Assembly (NCBI RefSeq): GCF_008364845.1
Contig: NZ_VTTP01000002.1
Span: 587,453 to 651,452, forward strand
Source: Actinotalea subterranea
Lineage (GTDB): Bacteria; Actinomycetota; Actinomycetes; Actinomycetales; Cellulomonadaceae
Length of the DNA stretch: 64,000 nt
Direction of reading: 5' to 3'
The position numbers and the translations under genes are program-made. Below, piece by piece: positions 11,638 through 19,064 of this stretch. Position 1 is the stretch's first letter. Every line of letters begins with the position of its first letter. A model generated the notes under the pieces. The model did no database searches. It worked only from the letters and a program-made list of their open reading frames with translations, and was not told the DNA's origin.

Positions 11638-12615
11638 GTGCGCATCCTCCTGACCGGCTCGAACGGGTTCATCGGCGCGCGGATCGCCGCCGACGCCAAG
11701 GCGCGGGGCTGGGAGGTCGTCGGGCTCGGACGTTCCGCGGCGCCGGCGCGTCCCGCGGGGTCCGCGGGGCCCGACGCCTACGTGCGGCACGACCTCGGCG
11801 AGCGTCTCCCGGACGGCGCGGTGCCGGGGCCCGTCGACGCGGTGGTGCACTGCGCGGCCCTGGCCTCGCCGTGGGCGCCACCGTCGGCGTTCGTGCGGGC
11901 CAACGTCGAGGGCACCAGGACGGTCCTGCGGTGGGCCGCGGACCACGGCGCGCCCCCCGTGGTCTACGTGTCCAGCTCGAGCGTCCTCTACCGGGACGAG
12001 CACCAGCTCGGTCTCACGGAGGACTCACCCGTCCCGCCCGACGACGAGCAGATCAACGTGTACTCCCGCACCAAGCGGATCGGTGAGCGCATGGTCGCCC
12101 GGTACCCGGGCCCGTGGTCGGTCGTCCGGCCCCGTGCCGTGTTCGGCGCGGGCGACACGGTGCTGCTGCCCCGCATCGTCCGCGCGGCGCGGCGTGGGGT
12201 CCTGCCCGTCCTCGAGAGCGCCGACGGGCCGCGCATCGTGTGCGACCTCACCGAGGTCGACACGGTCGCGCACTACGTGACGCAGGCGCTCGAGCGTCGG
12301 GTGCAGGGCGTGTACAACGTGACCAACGCGGACCCCGTCGAGCTCTACCCGTTCCTGCTGACCCTCCTGAGCCGGCTCGGGGTGCGGCCCACGGTCCGGC
12401 GCGTGCCCCCGGCCGTCGCCCTCGCCCTCGCCGGTGCCGCGGAGCGGGTCTCGGCCGTCGCGCTCGGGTACGCCGAGCCGCCCGTGACGCGCTTCGGCGT
12501 GTCGGTCCTCGCACGGTCCAAGACGTTCGACGTCACGCGTGCCCTGCGTGACCTCGGCGAACCCGCGGTGAGCCTCGACGAGGGCGTGGAGCGCCTGGTT
12601 GCCACGCATGGCTGA
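11638..12615 (+). CDS. NAD(P)-dependent epimerase/dehydratase (extended SDR)
   Basis: A 325-residue extended short-chain dehydrogenase. N-terminal Rossmann motif TGSNGFIGARI (Gly-x2-Gly-x2-Gly, residues 7-13), a central HCAALASPW strand and the catalytic Tyr142/Lys146 pair in VYSRTKRIGE. The overall pattern resembles 3-beta-hydroxysteroid dehydrogenase-type enzymes and OleD, which reduces 2-alkyl-3-keto acids, more than sugar epimerases. GTG start at 11638 directly follows a 56-base gap after the GH31 gene; the stop overlaps the next gene by eight bases. As first gene of a four-gene group with two glycosyltransferases and opposite a KAS III gene, it is a candidate keto-reductase of a lipid-type product. 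That role is inference. Confidence 0.85.
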   Translation: MRILLTGSNGFIGARIAADAKARGWEVVGLGRSAAPARPAGSAGPDAYVRHDLGERLPDGAVPGPVDAVVHCAALASPWAPPSAFVRANVEGTRTVLRWAADHGAPPVVYVSSSSVLYRDEHQLGLTEDSPVPPDDEQINVYSRTKRIGERMVARYPGPWSVVRPRAVFGAGDTVLLPRIVRAARRGVLPVLESADGPRIVCDLTEVDTVAHYVTQALERRVQGVYNVTNADPVELYPFLLTLLSRLGVRPTVRRVPPAVALALAGAAERVSAVALGYAEPPVTRFGVSVLARSKTFDVTRALRDLGEPAVSLDEGVERLVATHG

Positions 12616-13831
12616 GGCGGCGCTCGTGCTCGCCGGCGTGCTGGCCGTGCTGACCGCCGCGCGCGTGGGCCTCGCCGCCGCCGCGCTCCGGCGCGGGCCC
12701 GTCGTGCGCAGGCCCGGTGGGGCGCCGGGCGCGGCTGGCACCGGGCGCGCTGCGGCCGCCGCTGCCGGCCAGGGGCCGTCAGATGGTGCGGCCCCGGTGA
12801 CCGTCCTGGTCGCGGTCCGCTCGGGGGACCCGCTCATGCCCGCGATGCTGCGCGAGAACGTCGCGAGCATCGGGCGGACGCCACACGCACGCCTCGTGCT
12901 CCTGGTCGACGAGGACGACGCCCCCGGGCGGGACGCGGCAGCGCAGGCGCTGGCGGTCGCGCCGGACCTCGTGACCGTGGTGCCGTGCGCCCCGCCCGAG
13001 CCGGGCCGCAACCCGAAGGTCGTCAAGCTCGTGGTGGGGCTCGAGCGGGCCGACGCGCTCGTCGCGGTCCTCGACGACGACACCGTGCTGCCCGACGGTG
13101 CCCTGGGGGTCGCTCGGGACGCGCTCGCCGCGGGCCACCTCGTCACCGGGCTGCCCGTGTACCGGGAGCAGGGCTCGCTCTGGTCGCGCCTCGTCGCGGC
13201 CTTCGTCAACGGCAGCGCCCTCGTGACGTACCTGCCGCTCGCGCGCGTGGCACCGCCCGTCACCGTCAACGGGATGTTCGTCCTCACGCGTCGGGACGTC
13301 CTCGAGGGCCTGGGCGGCTTCGCGGCGATCAGCGGTGAGGTCTGCGACGACTACGCGCTCGCGCGCCTCTACCGCGATGCCGGCCTGACCCTGGTGCAGA
13401 CGACCGTGACGCACCCGCTGGCGACGACCGTGCCCGGTCCGCGCGCGTACGCCCGCATCCTGCGCCGCTGGATGGTGTTCAGCCAGGAGGTGCTGCGTCG
13501 CGACCTCACGCCCGCCATGGTCGCGCTCGTCGTCCTGCCTGCCGTCCTTCCCCTGCTCGCCCTCGCGCTCGCCGTCGCCTCGGGCCGACCGGCCGTCGTC
13601 GCGGCCGTCGTCGCCGTGCTCGTCTCGAAGGTGCTTGCCGTCGCGGCGCTGCGACGGCGCGTCCCGGGCGCACCACGGGGCGCGCTCGGCGTCGTCCTCG
13701 AGCTCGTGGCCGACCTCCTGACGCCGGTGCACGCCGTGGGCGCGCTCGTCGGGCCGCGCCGGGTCGCCTGGCGGGACCGGCAGATCCGCACCGGACCGGC
13801 GGGTCCCGTCATGGCCGGGGACGCGCCGTGA
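12608..13831 (+). CDS. Membrane glycosyltransferase, GT2/GT21 (ceramide glucosyltransferase-like)
   Basis: A 407-residue glycosyltransferase: N-terminal membrane anchor, an Ala/Gly-rich spacer to about residue 60, then a GT-A domain with NPKVVKLVVGLERA, the metal-binding DDD at 156-158, CDDYALAR (247-248) and an RRW-type motif at 286-288, and three C-terminal membrane segments. This arrangement is that of GT21 enzymes, which glucosylate ceramide or, as HpnI, hopanoid acceptors. ATG 12608 was preferred to the TTG at 12599; both overlap the epimerase end. Likely acts on a lipid acceptor at the inner membrane. Acceptor and donor are unknown. The downstream start overlaps its stop (GTGA). Confidence 0.8.
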   Translation: MAEAALVLAGVLAVLTAARVGLAAAALRRGPVVRRPGGAPGAAGTGRAAAAAAGQGPSDGAAPVTVLVAVRSGDPLMPAMLRENVASIGRTPHARLVLLVDEDDAPGRDAAAQALAVAPDLVTVVPCAPPEPGRNPKVVKLVVGLERADALVAVLDDDTVLPDGALGVARDALAAGHLVTGLPVYREQGSLWSRLVAAFVNGSALVTYLPLARVAPPVTVNGMFVLTRRDVLEGLGGFAAISGEVCDDYALARLYRDAGLTLVQTTVTHPLATTVPGPRAYARILRRWMVFSQEVLRRDLTPAMVALVVLPAVLPLLALALAVASGRPAVVAAVVAVLVSKVLAVAALRRRVPGAPRGALGVVLELVADLLTPVHAVGALVGPRRVAWRDRQIRTGPAGPVMAGDAP

Positions 13832-14523
13832 CCCGCTGGTTCGCCGGCTACGACGTCGCCGACCACCTCACCGCGTCGTCCGTGCCCTCCACCCTGGCGG
13901 GCGGGGCCGGCACCGCCGGCGAAGAGGTGCCGTCCGGCCGGTGCGGCGCGCGTGCGGCGTGGCTCACGGGGCAGAGCTCCTGGCGCCACAGCCGGCTCTC
14001 GCCCGCGCAGGAGGACGTGCTCGCGGACCTCGCCGGGCTCGGGTACGTCCCCGTCCCCGGTGGCTTCCCGTACAACCGTGCGGCGATGCGCCTGCCGTAC
14101 CGGCCCGAGCCGGTGCTCGCGGCCTCGGTGCGCAACACCGCCCAGTACGTCGCGGCGCGGACGAGCGCGCGCTTCGCCGACGACGTGGTGCGGCACCTCC
14201 AGCCGCTGGTCGACGCGACCGAGCACCACCTGCTCCTCCTGTGCGGCAGCACGGGTGCCCAGCTCCTGGCCACCGCGGCCCCGCGGCTGCGCGTGCGCGC
14301 CGGCCTGACGGTCACCGCCGTCGCGCTCGGTCCGGTGGGCGCACGCCCCGAGGCGGCTCCCGGGCTCCAGGTGCGCGTGCTCCAGGGTGACCGCGACCTC
14401 GTGAGCCGCTGGGGCTACCGGGGGACGCCTGACCTCGTCGTCCCCGGGCGCCACCTCGGCTACGCGACCTCGGCCCAGGTGCGCGCCGAGGTCCTGCGTG
14501 TCGCACGGGAGGTGCTCGCGTGA
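13828..14523 (+). CDS. Uncharacterised protein, possible alpha/beta-hydrolase fold
   Basis: A 231-residue protein I do not recognise. There is no signal peptide and no clear membrane segment. The middle has a strand-turn-helix LLLLCGSTGAQLLATAAPRL that resembles a serine-hydrolase nucleophile elbow, although the usual Gly two residues before Ser is Cys. Further on, LQGDRDLVSRW could place an acid and VPGRHLGY a histidine, in the order seen in alpha/beta hydrolases. GTG start 13828 overlaps the glycosyltransferase stop, and its own TGA overlaps the GT1 start, so it is tightly coupled to both glycosyltransferases. It may hydrolyse or release an acyl intermediate of the pathway; this is a guess from fold hints and context. 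Confidence 0.6.
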   Translation: MTRWFAGYDVADHLTASSVPSTLAGGAGTAGEEVPSGRCGARAAWLTGQSSWRHSRLSPAQEDVLADLAGLGYVPVPGGFPYNRAAMRLPYRPEPVLAASVRNTAQYVAARTSARFADDVVRHLQPLVDATEHHLLLLCGSTGAQLLATAAPRLRVRAGLTVTAVALGPVGARPEAAPGLQVRVLQGDRDLVSRWGYRGTPDLVVPGRHLGYATSAQVRAEVLRVAREVLA

Positions 14524-15773
14524 GCGGCCCCCGCCTGCTGCTCGTCGCGCCGCCGTTCAGCGGGCACCTGAACCCGTTGATCGGCCTCGCGACGGGTCTG
14601 CGCGCCCGGGGCATGGAACCCCGCTTCGCGACCGGTGCGGCCAAGGTGGACCTCCTGCGCGGGCTCGGCTTCGCCGTGGAGCCGCTCCTCGCGGACGACC
14701 CCGGTGCGCTCGAGCGGATCTCCGACACCCCCGGCCCGGTCCGCAGCAACCCCGTCCTCCTCCTGCGGCAGCTGTCGGCGAACCTCGCGCTCCTGCCGAC
14801 CGTGCGCCGCGAGCTCGACGTGCTCGTGGACCGCGACCGTCCCGACGCGGTCCTGGCGGACTTCACGGCGCCCGTCGCGGGCCTCGTCGCGCTCGACCGC
14901 GGCATCCCGTGGCTCACGACCATGCCGACGCCGTTCGCGCTCGAGACCCGGACGGGCACGCCCTCGTACTGCGGCGGCTGGGGGCCGGCGCGGCACGCCG
15001 GGCACCGGGTGCGTGACGCGGCGGGCCGGGCGGCGACCCGGGCGACCAAACGGACGATGCAGCGCGTCCTCGCGTCGCGCTTCGCCGCCGCCGGGACGGG
15101 CGTGTACCGGGCCGACGGCTCGGAGGCCGCCTACTCGCCGCAGTCGATCCTCGGCCTCGGCATGCGCGAGCTCGAGCTCCCGCGCGACTGGCCCGACCAG
15201 CTCGAGCTCGTCGGCCCCGTGACGGCGACGCCGGAGCCGTGGCCCGAGCCACCCGTCCTGCCGCCGGGGCCGCTCGTGCTCGTGACCATGGGCACCCACC
15301 TGCCGTGGGTCAAGCGCGACCTGGTCGAGCGCGTCCGGGTGCTTGCGGACTCCTTCCGTGGACACCGGTTCGTCGTGAGCCTCGGCGACGCGTCACGTGC
15401 GGCGCCGCACCCGGTCGCGCAGGACGGGGACGTGCACGTCTACAGCCACCTGCCGTACGACGACGTGCTGCCGCGGTGCGCCGCCGTCGTGCACCACGGC
15501 GGGGCCGGGATCACCTACAGCGCCGTCCGCGCGGGCGTCCCGGCGCTCGTGTGCCCGCAGGACTACGACCAGTTCGACTTCGCGGCGCGTGTCGTGGCGG
15601 CCGGAGCGGGCGCCTCGGTGCGGCGGCTCGACTCGCCCGCCGCGGTGCGGGCGATGCGTGCCCTGCTCGACGCCGACCGCGGGCCGCTCGAGCGGCTCTC
15701 GCGCGCGGCCGCGACCTACGACCCGGTCGGCGCCACCGAGCGCGCGGTCCTGAGGCTCATCGCGCGTCGGTGA
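14520..15773 (+). CDS. GT1 family glycosyltransferase (MGT/UGT type)
   Basis: A 417-residue GT-B enzyme. It begins with LLLVAPPFSGHLNPLIGLA, the acceptor-domain start typical of macrolide/UDP-glycosyltransferases with the catalytic His, and the C-terminal nucleotide-sugar domain has VVHHGGAGITYSAVRAGVPA and CPQDYDQFDFAARV. These enzymes transfer a sugar from an NDP-sugar to a small lipophilic acceptor in the cytosol. GTG start at 14520 overlaps the preceding stop (GTGA). The 3' end overlaps the oppositely oriented adenylating-enzyme gene by 17 bases. Together with the GT21-like enzyme it implies a product carrying at least one, possibly two, sugars. Confidence 0.88.
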   Translation: MSGPRLLLVAPPFSGHLNPLIGLATGLRARGMEPRFATGAAKVDLLRGLGFAVEPLLADDPGALERISDTPGPVRSNPVLLLRQLSANLALLPTVRRELDVLVDRDRPDAVLADFTAPVAGLVALDRGIPWLTTMPTPFALETRTGTPSYCGGWGPARHAGHRVRDAAGRAATRATKRTMQRVLASRFAAAGTGVYRADGSEAAYSPQSILGLGMRELELPRDWPDQLELVGPVTATPEPWPEPPVLPPGPLVLVTMGTHLPWVKRDLVERVRVLADSFRGHRFVVSLGDASRAAPHPVAQDGDVHVYSHLPYDDVLPRCAAVVHHGGAGITYSAVRAGVPALVCPQDYDQFDFAARVVAAGAGASVRRLDSPAAVRAMRALLDADRGPLERLSRAAATYDPVGATERAVLRLIARR

Positions 15774-17091
15774 GGCCCACCGCCGGGCCGCCGGGCACGG
15801 ACGGGTCCCGACGCACCCGGCGCAGCTTCTCGGTCGGGCCGAGCGGCGTGAAGTCGGCCCGCTCGACCGCGGGCTCGACGAGCCCCGCGCGTCGGACGGT
15901 GGCCCGCAGCGCGCTCGCGGCGCCGTCGTGCGCGGCCGGTGGCGTCACCGCGACGGTCACCGTTGCCGCACCCGTCTGCACGACGCGGAAGTCACGGACG
16001 CCCGGTGCGCCAAGGACGGCGCCCCGCACGAAGTCCGCGAACAGCGGTCCCCGGGTGCCCGGACGTTCCGCGGATGCGAGCCACAGGACGTCGTCCGCCC
16101 GGCCTGCGACCTCGTCCACGACGAGCGTGGGTGAGCCGCAGCCGCAGGCGTCGTCGGCCGCGAGCAGCACGTCGTCGAGCCGCAGCCGCAGCACGGCCTG
16201 GCTCGTCCGCACCAGGTCGGTGATGACGGGTGTGAACCGCCGGCCCGTCCGGTCGAGCGGGATCCGCTCGACCTTCACGAGGTCCTCGTTCAGGTGCAGC
16301 GCCCCGAGCCGGCAGCTGATCCCCAGGAACCCCTCGGTGGCCTGGTAGATCTGGTCCACCCGGCACCCGAGGCCGGCCTCGATCTCCCGCTCGTCGTGCG
16401 GGTCGAGGACCTCCGCGACGGACAGCACCCGCCCGGGGCTGATCGTCGAGCGGCCCTGCACCTTGGCCTGCGCGACGAGCCGGAGGATCGAGGGCGGGGC
16501 GGCGAGCACCGTCGGTCGGAAGTCCTCGAGCGCGGTCAGCTGCGCCTCGACCGGCAGTGCGAGGTCCACGAACCGGAAGCTGACCCGCCGCGTCCCGACG
16601 GACTCGTACAGGGGCCCGCCGGCGCGGAGCACGAGGGCGACGCGCGTGCCGGTGACGAGGCCGTCAGGGAGGGCCTTCGCGAGCACCTCGCCCGCCCAGC
16701 GGGCGCGCTCGCGCGGCGTCGTCAGGAAGACGCTCTGGCGGCCCGAGGTCCCGGACGACAGGCCGATCGACACCCCGCCGAGCGATGCGGTGAAGTCGCG
16801 TTCCCGTTCCGCGGTGCGGGCGGCGGCGAGGCACGCGTCGAGCGTCAGCCCGTGTTCGTTGAGGTCGGCGAACCGCTCCACGACGGTCGCCTTGTCGATC
16901 ACGGGCAGGTCGGTCAGGCGGGTCGGGGCGAGCCCGCGGTAGTACGGGTAGCGGCGGGGCGCGGTGGCGAGCACCCGACGCAGCCGTGCGTCCTGCCACG
17001 CCTGGAGAGCCGCACGGTCGGCGAACCGCCGTCGCCGCGCACGCGCGTACGCCACGCCCACCTGGAGCTGCGTGAGGCCGGGCGGGCTCAT
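15757..17091 (-). CDS. F390 synthetase-like / PaaK-like adenylate-forming enzyme
   Basis: A 444-residue member of the ANL adenylating superfamily, nearer to PaaK/CapK and coenzyme F390 synthetase than to acyl-CoA synthetases. The nucleotide-binding loop is GLSSGTSGRQ (SSGTSG at 112-117), with YQATEGFLG and a C-terminal subdomain ending in PLGPTEKLRRV. It would activate a carboxylate as an acyl-adenylate. The start is ATG 17091, 10 bases after the stop of the MBL gene; an in-frame extension to 17223 overlaps that gene and was rejected. No F420 biosynthesis is nearby, so F390 formation is unlikely. Third gene of the minus-strand group after KAS III and the MBL-fold protein. Confidence 0.82.
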   Translation of the reverse strand: MSPPGLTQLQVGVAYARARRRRFADRAALQAWQDARLRRVLATAPRRYPYYRGLAPTRLTDLPVIDKATVVERFADLNEHGLTLDACLAAARTAERERDFTASLGGVSIGLSSGTSGRQSVFLTTPRERARWAGEVLAKALPDGLVTGTRVALVLRAGGPLYESVGTRRVSFRFVDLALPVEAQLTALEDFRPTVLAAPPSILRLVAQAKVQGRSTISPGRVLSVAEVLDPHDEREIEAGLGCRVDQIYQATEGFLGISCRLGALHLNEDLVKVERIPLDRTGRRFTPVITDLVRTSQAVLRLRLDDVLLAADDACGCGSPTLVVDEVAGRADDVLWLASAERPGTRGPLFADFVRGAVLGAPGVRDFRVVQTGAATVTVAVTPPAAHDGAASALRATVRRAGLVEPAVERADFTPLGPTEKLRRVRRDPSVPGGPAVGLTDAR

Positions 17092-17101
17092 CGGCGCGAG
17101 C

Positions 17102-18016
17102 TCACGGGCGGGCCGCCGCGAGGGCGAGACGGGCCCGGTCGATGGCCACGGGGCAGTGCGACGGGACGACCAGCAGGCCGGGGGAGGTGCGGTGGAGCCT
17201 GTGCAGGGCGCCGAGCGTCGCACGGTAGGCGCCCCACGAGTGGGTCACGAGCCTGACGACCGGGTGCGGCAGCTCGAGGTGCGTGATGGCGCGCAGGCTC
17301 CACGCCGCGTCGCCGACGAGCAGCACGTCGCCCGCCCGGCTCGCGACGAGGAGGCCCACCTGACCGTGCGCGTGGCCCGGCAGGCGCACGACGACGACGC
17401 TCCCGTCGCCGAGCAGGTCGTGGGCGGGTCCGAGGGTCGTGACGTCGGTCCGCGCGGACTGCGGCGCCTGCGGGTCACCGGCCCCGGCGGGGTCGCGCGG
17501 GGCGTCGGGCACCCAGCGGGGCAGCGTCGCGACGTCCACGACGCGGCGCTCGAGGTCGTCTGGCAGGAGCGCGGGCAGGAACCCACGCCGCAGCCGTCCG
17601 AGCGGGCCCCGCCGCACGTGCGAGGCGAGGGCGTCCGCGTCGAGGACGACACGGGCGGCGGGCAGGTCACGCAGGCCGGCGACGTGGTCCGCGTGCAGGT
17701 GCGAGACGACGACGGTGGCGACGTCCGCCGGGTCGATCCCGAGGGCCGGGAGCTGCTCGGCGAGCGACCTGCCACGACCCAGACGCATCGGCAGGAGGCG
17801 GCCGTAGACGGCACCCGGTCCGCGGCGCGTCGCCGTCGCGTAGCGCGGCGCGTAGCCGGTGTCGAGCAGCACGACCCCGTGGTCGGGGTGCCGGATCACG
17901 GCGACGAGGCTCGGGAACTCGACAGGACGCCAGGGCGCTCCCCGGCGCGCGACGGCGCCGGGGTGCTCGCAGGAGCCGACCGTGAGGAGGTCGACCAGGA
18001 CGGGGCGCACCGCCAC
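17102..18016 (-). CDS. MBL-fold metallo-hydrolase
   Basis: A 304-residue metallo-beta-lactamase-fold enzyme with the metal motif SHLHADH (His106, His108, Asp110, His111), LPGHAHGQVGLL and LVGDAAW. This is the pattern of lactonase/thioesterase-type members (AiiA-like) rather than of antibiotic resistance enzymes; there is no signal peptide. It starts one base after the KAS III stop region and is followed after 10 bases by the adenylating enzyme, so the three are co-transcribed. In this setting a role as thioesterase or lactone hydrolase on the KAS III product is reasonable but unproven. Residues 145-180 form a Pro/Ala-rich loop. Confidence 0.88.
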   Translation of the reverse strand: MAVRPVLVDLLTVGSCEHPGAVARRGAPWRPVEFPSLVAVIRHPDHGVVLLDTGYAPRYATATRRGPGAVYGRLLPMRLGRGRSLAEQLPALGIDPADVATVVVSHLHADHVAGLRDLPAARVVLDADALASHVRRGPLGRLRRGFLPALLPDDLERRVVDVATLPRWVPDAPRDPAGAGDPQAPQSARTDVTTLGPAHDLLGDGSVVVVRLPGHAHGQVGLLVASRAGDVLLVGDAAWSLRAITHLELPHPVVRLVTHSWGAYRATLGALHRLHRTSPGLLVVPSHCPVAIDRARLALAAARP

Positions 18017-18017
18017 G

Positions 18018-19064
18018 TCAGTACCGCAGGAGCACGGCGCCGATGGACAGGCCCGCTCCGGTCCCGAGCAGCAGCGCGGTCTGACCGCGCCCGAGCCGGC
18101 CGGAGCTGATCGCGTGGTGCAGGGCCGTCGGCAAGGACGCCGAGACCTGGTTGCCGTGGTCCCCGATGATGTCCACCACGGCCTCGGGCGGCAGGCCCGT
18201 GCGCTGACGCAGGTAGCGCAGGCCGACGCCGCTCGCCTGGTGGGGGACCACGACGTCCACCTCGTCGAGCGCGGGGCCGCTGTCCTCGCGCAGACCCTCG
18301 AGGAACGCAGGCAGATGGACCGCGACCTGGCGCAGGAGCGCGCGACCGTCCATCCGGAACAGGTAGGCGGTCGGGTCCGGGGGCGGTGTCACGGCGTTCC
18401 ACCGGGTGCCGCCCGCGTCGATCCGGCAGTGGTCCGACCCCTCGGGCCACGTCGCGAACCTGAGCGCGAGGACGGACGAGGCGTCCTCGGGCGCCGACCG
18501 TCCCACGACGATCGCGGCCGCGCCGTCGCCGAAGAGCGCGCTCGACTCGACCTCGGCGTGGTTGAGGCCCTTCGACGCGAGCTCGGTCGCCGCGACGGCG
18601 ACGCGGTCCCAGCGGCCGGCCGCGATCCCGACGGTCGCCACCTGGAGCGCGGTGAGGAAGCCGATGCACGACGCGTTGATGTCGAACGCCTCCGTCCGTC
18701 CGCCCGCGAGGCCGAGCTCGCGCAGCGCGAGGACGCTCGTGGTCGGCATCGGCTGCTCGGGGAGCACGCTCGAGACGATGAGGGCGTCGAGGTCGGACAG
18801 GTCGGTCCCGGCCGCCTCCGCCGCGGCGCGCAGCGCTCCCGCGGCCATCCGGCTCGAGCTCTCGTCCGGCCCGGCCCACCGACGGCTCGCGACGCCTGAG
18901 CGCGCCTGGGTGGTGCCCGCGGGGCGCTCGTACCTCTCGTCGAGCTCCGTGGACGTCATGAGCACCGAGGGCTCGTGCACCCCCGAGCCGAGGATGCGCA
19001 CGGGGTAGGCCGTCGCGCGTCTGCGTGCCTGGGCGCGCTCGGGTGCGGGGGCGGTCGTCGTCAT
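18018..19064 (-). CDS. Beta-ketoacyl-ACP synthase III-like condensing enzyme
   Basis: A 348-residue thiolase-fold enzyme with the FabH triad: Cys133 in INASCIGFL, His275 in PHQASG and Asn305 in GNQVSAS. FabH-type enzymes condense an acyl-CoA with malonyl-ACP; relatives such as OleA join two acyl chains. ATG 19064 was chosen; upstream in-frame residues are Arg-rich and lack a ribosome site. It heads the minus-strand trio (KAS III, MBL hydrolase, adenylating enzyme). The absence of other fab genes and the company of glycosyltransferases make a dedicated lipid or polyketide starter function more likely than primary fatty-acid synthesis. No acyl carrier protein gene is seen in the window. Confidence 0.88.
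   Translation of the reverse strand: MTTTAPAPERAQARRRATAYPVRILGSGVHEPSVLMTSTELDERYERPAGTTQARSGVASRRWAGPDESSSRMAAGALRAAAEAAGTDLSDLDALIVSSVLPEQPMPTTSVLALRELGLAGGRTEAFDINASCIGFLTALQVATVGIAAGRWDRVAVAATELASKGLNHAEVESSALFGDGAAAIVVGRSAPEDASSVLALRFATWPEGSDHCRIDAGGTRWNAVTPPPDPTAYLFRMDGRALLRQVAVHLPAFLEGLREDSGPALDEVDVVVPHQASGVGLRYLRQRTGLPPEAVVDIIGDHGNQVSASLPTALHHAISSGRLGRGQTALLLGTGAGLSIGAVLLRY

Follow-up and report, generated by a model that had tools for sequence, protein, structure and literature searches.

Several described systems share enzyme families with a seven-gene cluster that spans positions 11638 to 19064 of a 64,000-nucleotide stretch of the Actinotalea subterranea genome (contig NZ_VTTP01000002.1; the whole stretch is hereafter called the window). 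The OleABCD olefin and oleADC beta-lactone systems likewise combine a ketoacyl synthase III (KAS III), an OleD-like short-chain dehydrogenase/reductase (SDR), an AMP-forming enzyme and an alpha/beta-hydrolase, and one report places a glycosyltransferase beside oleA, oleC and oleD in a single cluster (PMC7064751). MxnB and CorB, which make the alpha-pyrone antibiotics myxopyronin and corallopyronin (PMC4578411), have in common with the KAS III of the cluster a Cys-His-Asn triad and a hydrophobic residue in place of the OleA glutamate. HpnI, a family 21 glycosyltransferase (GT21) of hopanoid synthesis, belongs to the same family as one of the cluster's two glycosyltransferases and is its best NCBIfam match (TIGR03472; 71.9 bits, cut-off 310), and TIGR02304, the F390 synthetase-related family, whose name gives no function, includes the adenylating enzyme of the cluster (ADEN). 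The Pseudomonas quinolone signal (PQS) pathway uses a ligase, a KAS III and a metallo-beta-lactamase (MBL)-fold thioesterase, and it is the presence of these three in one pathway that makes PqsA-E similar.

We found that four of the seven genes, those for KAS III, SDR, an MBL-fold hydrolase and ADEN, form a core to which TIGR02304 is here tied, and that the remaining three, encoding GT21, a predicted alpha/beta-hydrolase (the third gene) and a family 1 glycosyltransferase (GT1), form a sugar module. This cassette is real, widespread and built from known enzyme families, while the cassette as such, its breadth and its exchangeable modules are new as far as we searched. We put at about 0.4 the probability that all seven genes, core and sugar module together, act as one unit in a glycolipid pathway of the fused-chain kind proposed below. 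Compared with the Ole systems, the KAS lacks the OleA glutamate (0 of 81 aligned rows), the SDR scores far below the OleD cut-off, ADEN is a TIGR02304 protein and an MBL gene belongs to the core. Identity to MxnB and CorB is about 33-34%, the seven genes include no polyketide synthase or carrier protein, and SDR, MBL and ADEN have no part in the MxnB reaction (PMC5724707). Unlike PqsA-E, the core contains an extended SDR, and its KAS is closer to MxnB than to PqsD. A search of open-licence PMC papers returned no description of this cluster, in keeping with the earlier note on this DNA, which had proposed an undescribed system. Ten papers contain "F390 synthetase", among them PMC5467263 and PMC9823363, where it stands in tables, and PMC2649909, where it occurs once; ChmK, from the synthesis of chalkophomycin, is the subject of the one paper with "putative adenylate-forming enzyme" (PMC10849742).

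A four-gene core and its exchangeable modules

Using an alignment of 25 ADEN proteins, the window's included, out of 120 listed, we scanned one genome per species and obtained at least 588 matching stretches, 539 of them encoding a relative, from which the best 80 loci were used; core genes were called with profiles that combined the window proteins with their matches. Because the choice was made by ADEN similarity, the 80 loci do not sample genomes at random, and several of them are closely related (Janthinobacterium, for example, supplies five, and L035 and L036 look identical). The core four occur together in 69 of the 80 loci, and a domain-level recount at 60 bits gives 70 by adding L091. 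Eleven loci fall short of the full core (L022, L024, L030, L034, L047, L053, L060, L085, L091, L096 and L099), and eight of these, all but L034, L091 and L099, reach a contig end no more than 2.8 kb from ADEN; L053 has, besides its contig end, 2.5 kb upstream of ADEN without MBL, and L034 is a 21-kb locus without SDR. Both L091 and L099 come from Brevibacillus reuszeri; their MBL is split in two, a clear extended SDR is missing, and a classical SDR nearby looks as if a FabG-type reductase had replaced it.

The nine control loci around weaker ADEN relatives (L106-L114) yielded the core four in no case, the sole exception to their blankness being L111, with a weak KAS match of 35 bits (window, 435) and a weak SDR match of 24 bits (window, 373). 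Two other pieces of the window itself gave SDR matches of 20-26 bits only. Two additional loci with ADEN over the cut-off both carry the core four, and one of them, L105, is new, L104 being the L044 record with an identical KAS. All seven genes recur in 14 of the 80 loci, which represent five phyla and show four different arrangements, so the co-occurrence elsewhere that the earlier note had looked to is found, and 11 of these 14 have the convergent layout of the window. Core genes run in the order KAS-SDR-MBL-ADEN in 45 of 70 loci, and L079 has its KAS and MBL several kb from ADEN. Such constant membership in shuffled order is good evidence for joint function. A possible fusion is seen in Cellulomonas fimi HM71 (L023, 11354-14644), where a single open frame runs through the third gene and GT1 with no stop between them.

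The seven genes had been taken as the unit, a view that missed a four-gene core, present in at least 12 phylum-level groups, with a sugar module that can be swapped. Of the 80 loci, 19 have GT21 (13 from Actinomycetota, two each from Hymenobacter and Acidobacteriota, and one each from Paenibacillus caui and a Verrucomicrobiales bin), and it never shares a locus with ATP-grasp, GNAT, PAP2 or fatty-acid genes. An ATP-grasp gene is found in 24 loci, together with a gene for a GNAT-like protein, so labelled from annotated records by position and length, in 21; this form is known from Bacillota, Pseudomonadota and Campylobacterota, among other groups. A further 20 loci, every one of them from Pseudomonadota save none, have a fatty-acid hydroxylase or desaturase gene, in many cases next to PAP2, and a sulfotransferase adjoins the core in two alphaproteobacterial plasmids. 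L052 and L073 carry genes of both non-sugar sets, and 17 loci have none of the listed modules. Mapped onto the KAS tree, the sugar module requires a minimum of three changes if module-less rows are omitted, or five with all rows, and placement of its 19 rows in a single clade is rejected (approximately unbiased test, p-AU 6e-33), a test to be read in the knowledge that the group was named after the tree had been seen and that L054 sits on a long branch. The GNAT-like family is conserved (L097, 11232-12374, and 20 further loci), and the one member scanned had no Pfam or NCBIfam match.

These patterns would fit a broader idea, which we hold to be possible but doubtful, that bacteria at large share the core as a mobile cassette for a new class of two-chain membrane lipid, made by carbon-carbon fusion and capped or edited by exchangeable modules: sugars (GT21, GT1), amino groups (ATP-grasp and GNAT), sulfate (sulfotransferase) or oxidised chains (hydroxylase, desaturase and PAP2, the E. 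coli form). In such a lipid, and we put this no less tentatively, chain fusion would take the place of glycerol or serine as the backbone. The E. coli PAP2 and hydroxylase match ceramide- and ornithine-lipid families weakly (20.6 and 66.6 bits), so we make no sphingolipid claim; a literature search on bacterial ceramide synthase returned nothing relevant.

The condensing enzyme and the proposed pathway

The alignment of KAS proteins comprises 81 rows, 79 of them distinct, among which are FabH of the host genome and a third KAS that matches weakly. The triad that the earlier note had called intact (C133, H275 and N305) is kept in all 81. The base of OleA is a Glu117-Pro element that reaches into the partner subunit (PMC4578411, PMC7064751); the corresponding column holds I, L or M, with one T and one gap, and at this site the window enzyme has Met106-Pro107, Met106 lying opposite Val94 of MxnB. 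Because the OleA glutamate is absent, we reject the olefin pathway, as the earlier note had done, and its further suggestion of an OleA-type KAS gives way to MxnB and CorB, which are closer by sequence, tree and structure.

The window KAS scores 180 bits against MxnB and 72 against PqsD, and MxnB and CorB are its closest solved relatives by bits and by fold, with a small margin in Z in the structural comparison. It sides with them at 18 of 29 separating positions, and 80 of 80 rows have S278 and Q104, two residues common to MxnB and CorB and different in the three FabH rows. A quick tree, built with five references only and so tentative, places the cluster KAS rows (SH-aLRT 84) apart from FabH and next to MxnB/CorB and L055, the joint group having a support of 92. 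The enzyme shows what marks the MxnB/CorB type, a Cys-His-Asn triad without the OleA glutamate, and is predicted to fuse two acyl units in the manner of MxnB and CorB, which join two carrier-bound chains into a pyrone. The genome has a second KAS III, which scores 323.5 bits for TIGR00747 (cut-off 292.1; window KAS, 178.7) and adjoins an acyl carrier protein (ACP; 129.7 against 84) and a KAS II/FabF (496.3 against 387), with a FabD-like neighbour that remains below threshold (151.7 against 260.9). With a separate FabH beside ACP and FabF elsewhere in the genome, we reject the window KAS as the housekeeping FabH.

We infer the chemistry, that is, the substrates and the order of steps, as the earlier note had inferred condensation, reduction, activation and glycosylation. 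In our scheme two acyl thioesters would be joined by KAS III, and the ketone so formed would be reduced by the SDR; the acid, once freed by the MBL enzyme, would be re-activated by ADEN, after which GT21 and GT1 would add sugar at the hydroxyl or the carboxyl; the alpha/beta-hydrolase of the sugar module may edit or transfer an acyl group, which is the weakest step. The common gene order of the core, read as an order of action, agrees with this scheme and is not proof of it. We read the gene set as a fused-chain pathway because of the affinity of its KAS to MxnB/CorB, the OleD match of its SDR, the separate FabH and the lipid-type enzymes (fatty-acid hydroxylase, fatty-acid desaturase and PAP2) with which other lineages pair the core, and the product would likely be a glycolipid made from fused fatty chains.

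The same families could be wired differently. If ADEN acted at the start, as the ligase does in PQS synthesis, it would activate an unusual acid, perhaps an aryl one, the KAS would extend it once with malonyl, the SDR would reduce and the MBL enzyme release the product, and a 3-hydroxy acid would be glycosylated. We consider this route unlikely, though a serious candidate, given a KAS nearer to MxnB than to PqsD and the lipid-type partners of the core in other lineages. The MBL protein has 18 PDB matches at E <= 0.001, and no PqsE entry was recognised in that set. A dedicated supply of 3-hydroxy fatty acids, in which a FabH-type KAS would use a normal acyl-CoA with malonyl-ACP, the SDR would make a 3-hydroxyacyl group, MBL and ADEN would free and re-activate it and a simple rhamnolipid-like glycolipid would result, is less probable still: the KAS tree sets the cluster rows apart from FabH, the two fixed residues are those of MxnB/CorB and not of the FabH rows, and the genome already has its housekeeping FabH.

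The kinship with MxnB and CorB could also be taken at face value, since both yield alpha-pyrone antibiotics, and the product would then be a secreted pyrone- or lactone-type antibiotic or signal, capped with sugar for self-protection or export, rather than a membrane lipid. The closest named families of the MBL protein are lactonases, all below cut-off, and macrolide-inactivating transferases are among the low-scoring matches of GT1, both of which would suit a secreted molecule; the fatty-acid hydroxylase, desaturase and PAP2 found with the core elsewhere would not, and the recurring families scanned include no transporter or resistance gene that accompanies the sugar form. We rate a secreted product as improbable, the least favoured of these alternatives, and retain the glycolipid pathway from fused chains. 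A role in anti-phage defence was dropped because none of the seven proteins matched a PADLOC family at E <= 0.001.

Distribution of the core

The 69 core loci come from 12 named groups of phylum level, with one further locus source being an unnamed bacterium. Isolates are among those of Pseudomonadota, Bacillota, Actinomycetota and Bacteroidota; the other eight groups are represented in the 80-locus set by metagenome bins only, for which misbinning is possible. One such bin, assigned to Saccharibacteria, holds the whole core (L057, 8207-12200); members of this group have a reduced metabolism, so a complete core is odd there and may again reflect misbinning. The control genome of Deinobacterium chartae has a TIGR02304 protein over the cut-off, adding a further phylum for the ADEN family. 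A tblastn search of plasmids gave 21 records with ADEN relatives, and of seven regions viewed five have the annotated core four, one record is unannotated and one, pMPPla107 (L125, 6899-8197), has a TIGR02304-type gene among hypotheticals with no annotated core gene within 7 kb.

When the operon of E. whittamii (L086) was used as a megablast query, 672 of 5,426 E. coli genomes, about one in eight, gave a match at 90-95% identity, a fraction that is not a population frequency since the collection consists of complete genomes, many of them clinical. All but one of the 672 cover at least 80% of the query, and the matches lie at 671 chromosomal and 2 plasmid places. In E. coli NRG 857C (L102, 4073-10954) a seven-gene operon between narI and tyrosine tRNA genes runs KAS, SDR, MBL, ADEN, PAP2, sterol desaturase and acyl-CoA desaturase. 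A four-gene pathway is kept together in Cellulomonas as well as in Lachnospiraceae, Hymenobacter and E. coli, and its presence in E. coli makes it testable in a tractable species; a product, if found, would give the TIGR02304 family a function and bacteria a possible lipid or signal class.

Among close relatives of the host genome the cluster is rare. TIGR02304 is over its cut-off in 0 of 18 congeners, in 3 of 59 relatives with the window genome included, and among 396 Actinomycetota genomes in the window's own only, one more reaching 243.7 bits; the third-gene family is likewise found in 1 of the 396, again the window's own. An empty site was sought by blastn of window positions 1-45000 against six congener regions around the upstream alpha-glucosidase and none was defined: the alpha-glucosidase matched in all six, and otherwise two short pieces far from the cluster did. 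The downstream ATPase maps elsewhere, for example 437 kb away in the genome G017.

Gene layout and family assignments

The host genome is 4.03 Mb in size, and the nearest named relatives of the cluster genes include Cellulomonas. The seven open reading frames are each free of internal stops, and their coordinates confirm the two convergent groups, with a 17-base overlap between GT1 and ADEN, that had been described before. On the plus strand SDR and GT21 overlap by 8 bases, GT21 and the third gene by 4, and the third gene and GT1 by 4; on the minus strand ADEN, MBL and KAS III are separated by 1-10 bases. Such tight packing of both groups suggests two operons.

Table 1. Genes of the cluster, with positions in the window
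Gene	Position	Strand	Start and family evidence
Extended SDR, core; likely ketoreductase	11638..12615	+	GTG start; Epimerase PF01370, 86 bits; TGSNGFIG, YSRTK
GT21-like glycosyltransferase, sugar module	12608..13831	+	ATG start; PF13506, 97.3 bits; DDD, CDDY, RRW
Third gene, predicted minimal alpha/beta-hydrolase, sugar module	13828..14523	+	GTG start
GT1 (EryCIII-like) glycosyltransferase, sugar module	14520..15773	+	GTG start; PF06722, 58.5 bits; HHGGAG
ADEN, F390-synthetase-related adenylating enzyme, core	15757..17091	-	ATG start; TIGR02304, 355.7 bits
MBL-fold hydrolase, core; likely thioesterase or lactonase	17102..18016	-	GTG start; PF00753, 58.6 bits
KAS III, core; MxnB/CorB-like, predicted two-acyl condensation	18018..19064	-	ATG start

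Pfam assigns five of the proteins (SDR, GT21, GT1, MBL and KAS III) above its cut-offs. The best NCBIfam match of the SDR is OleD (NF042422), named as a 2-alkyl-3-oxoalkanoate reductase, at 153.7 bits against a cut-off of 580, and GT1 matches MGT at 61.2 bits against 260. The sole Pfam match of ADEN, AMP-binding, is below threshold (21.9 against 29.9 bits), and its TIGR02304 score lies well over the curated cut-off of 251.9, which upholds its earlier naming as F390-synthetase-like. The name OleC is absent from the six NCBIfam matches of ADEN, the presence of an OleC model in the library being unchecked. For the third gene, neither Pfam nor NCBIfam gives a match with E as high as 0.01 allowed; modelling predicts a minimal alpha/beta-hydrolase fold with a Ser-Asp-His triad, and the Ser, Asp and His are invariant. 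The closest solved relatives of ADEN are PaaK-type ligases, and those of MBL are a beta-lactamase-named entry and acyl-homoserine lactonases. Alongside the SDR, GT21 and GT1 motifs of Table 1, MBL carries the metal-binding motifs HLHADH, GHAHG, VGDAAW and SHC, and ADEN carries SSGTSG, YQATEG, GRADD and KLRRV; we take the motifs of these five proteins to have the meanings usual in their families.

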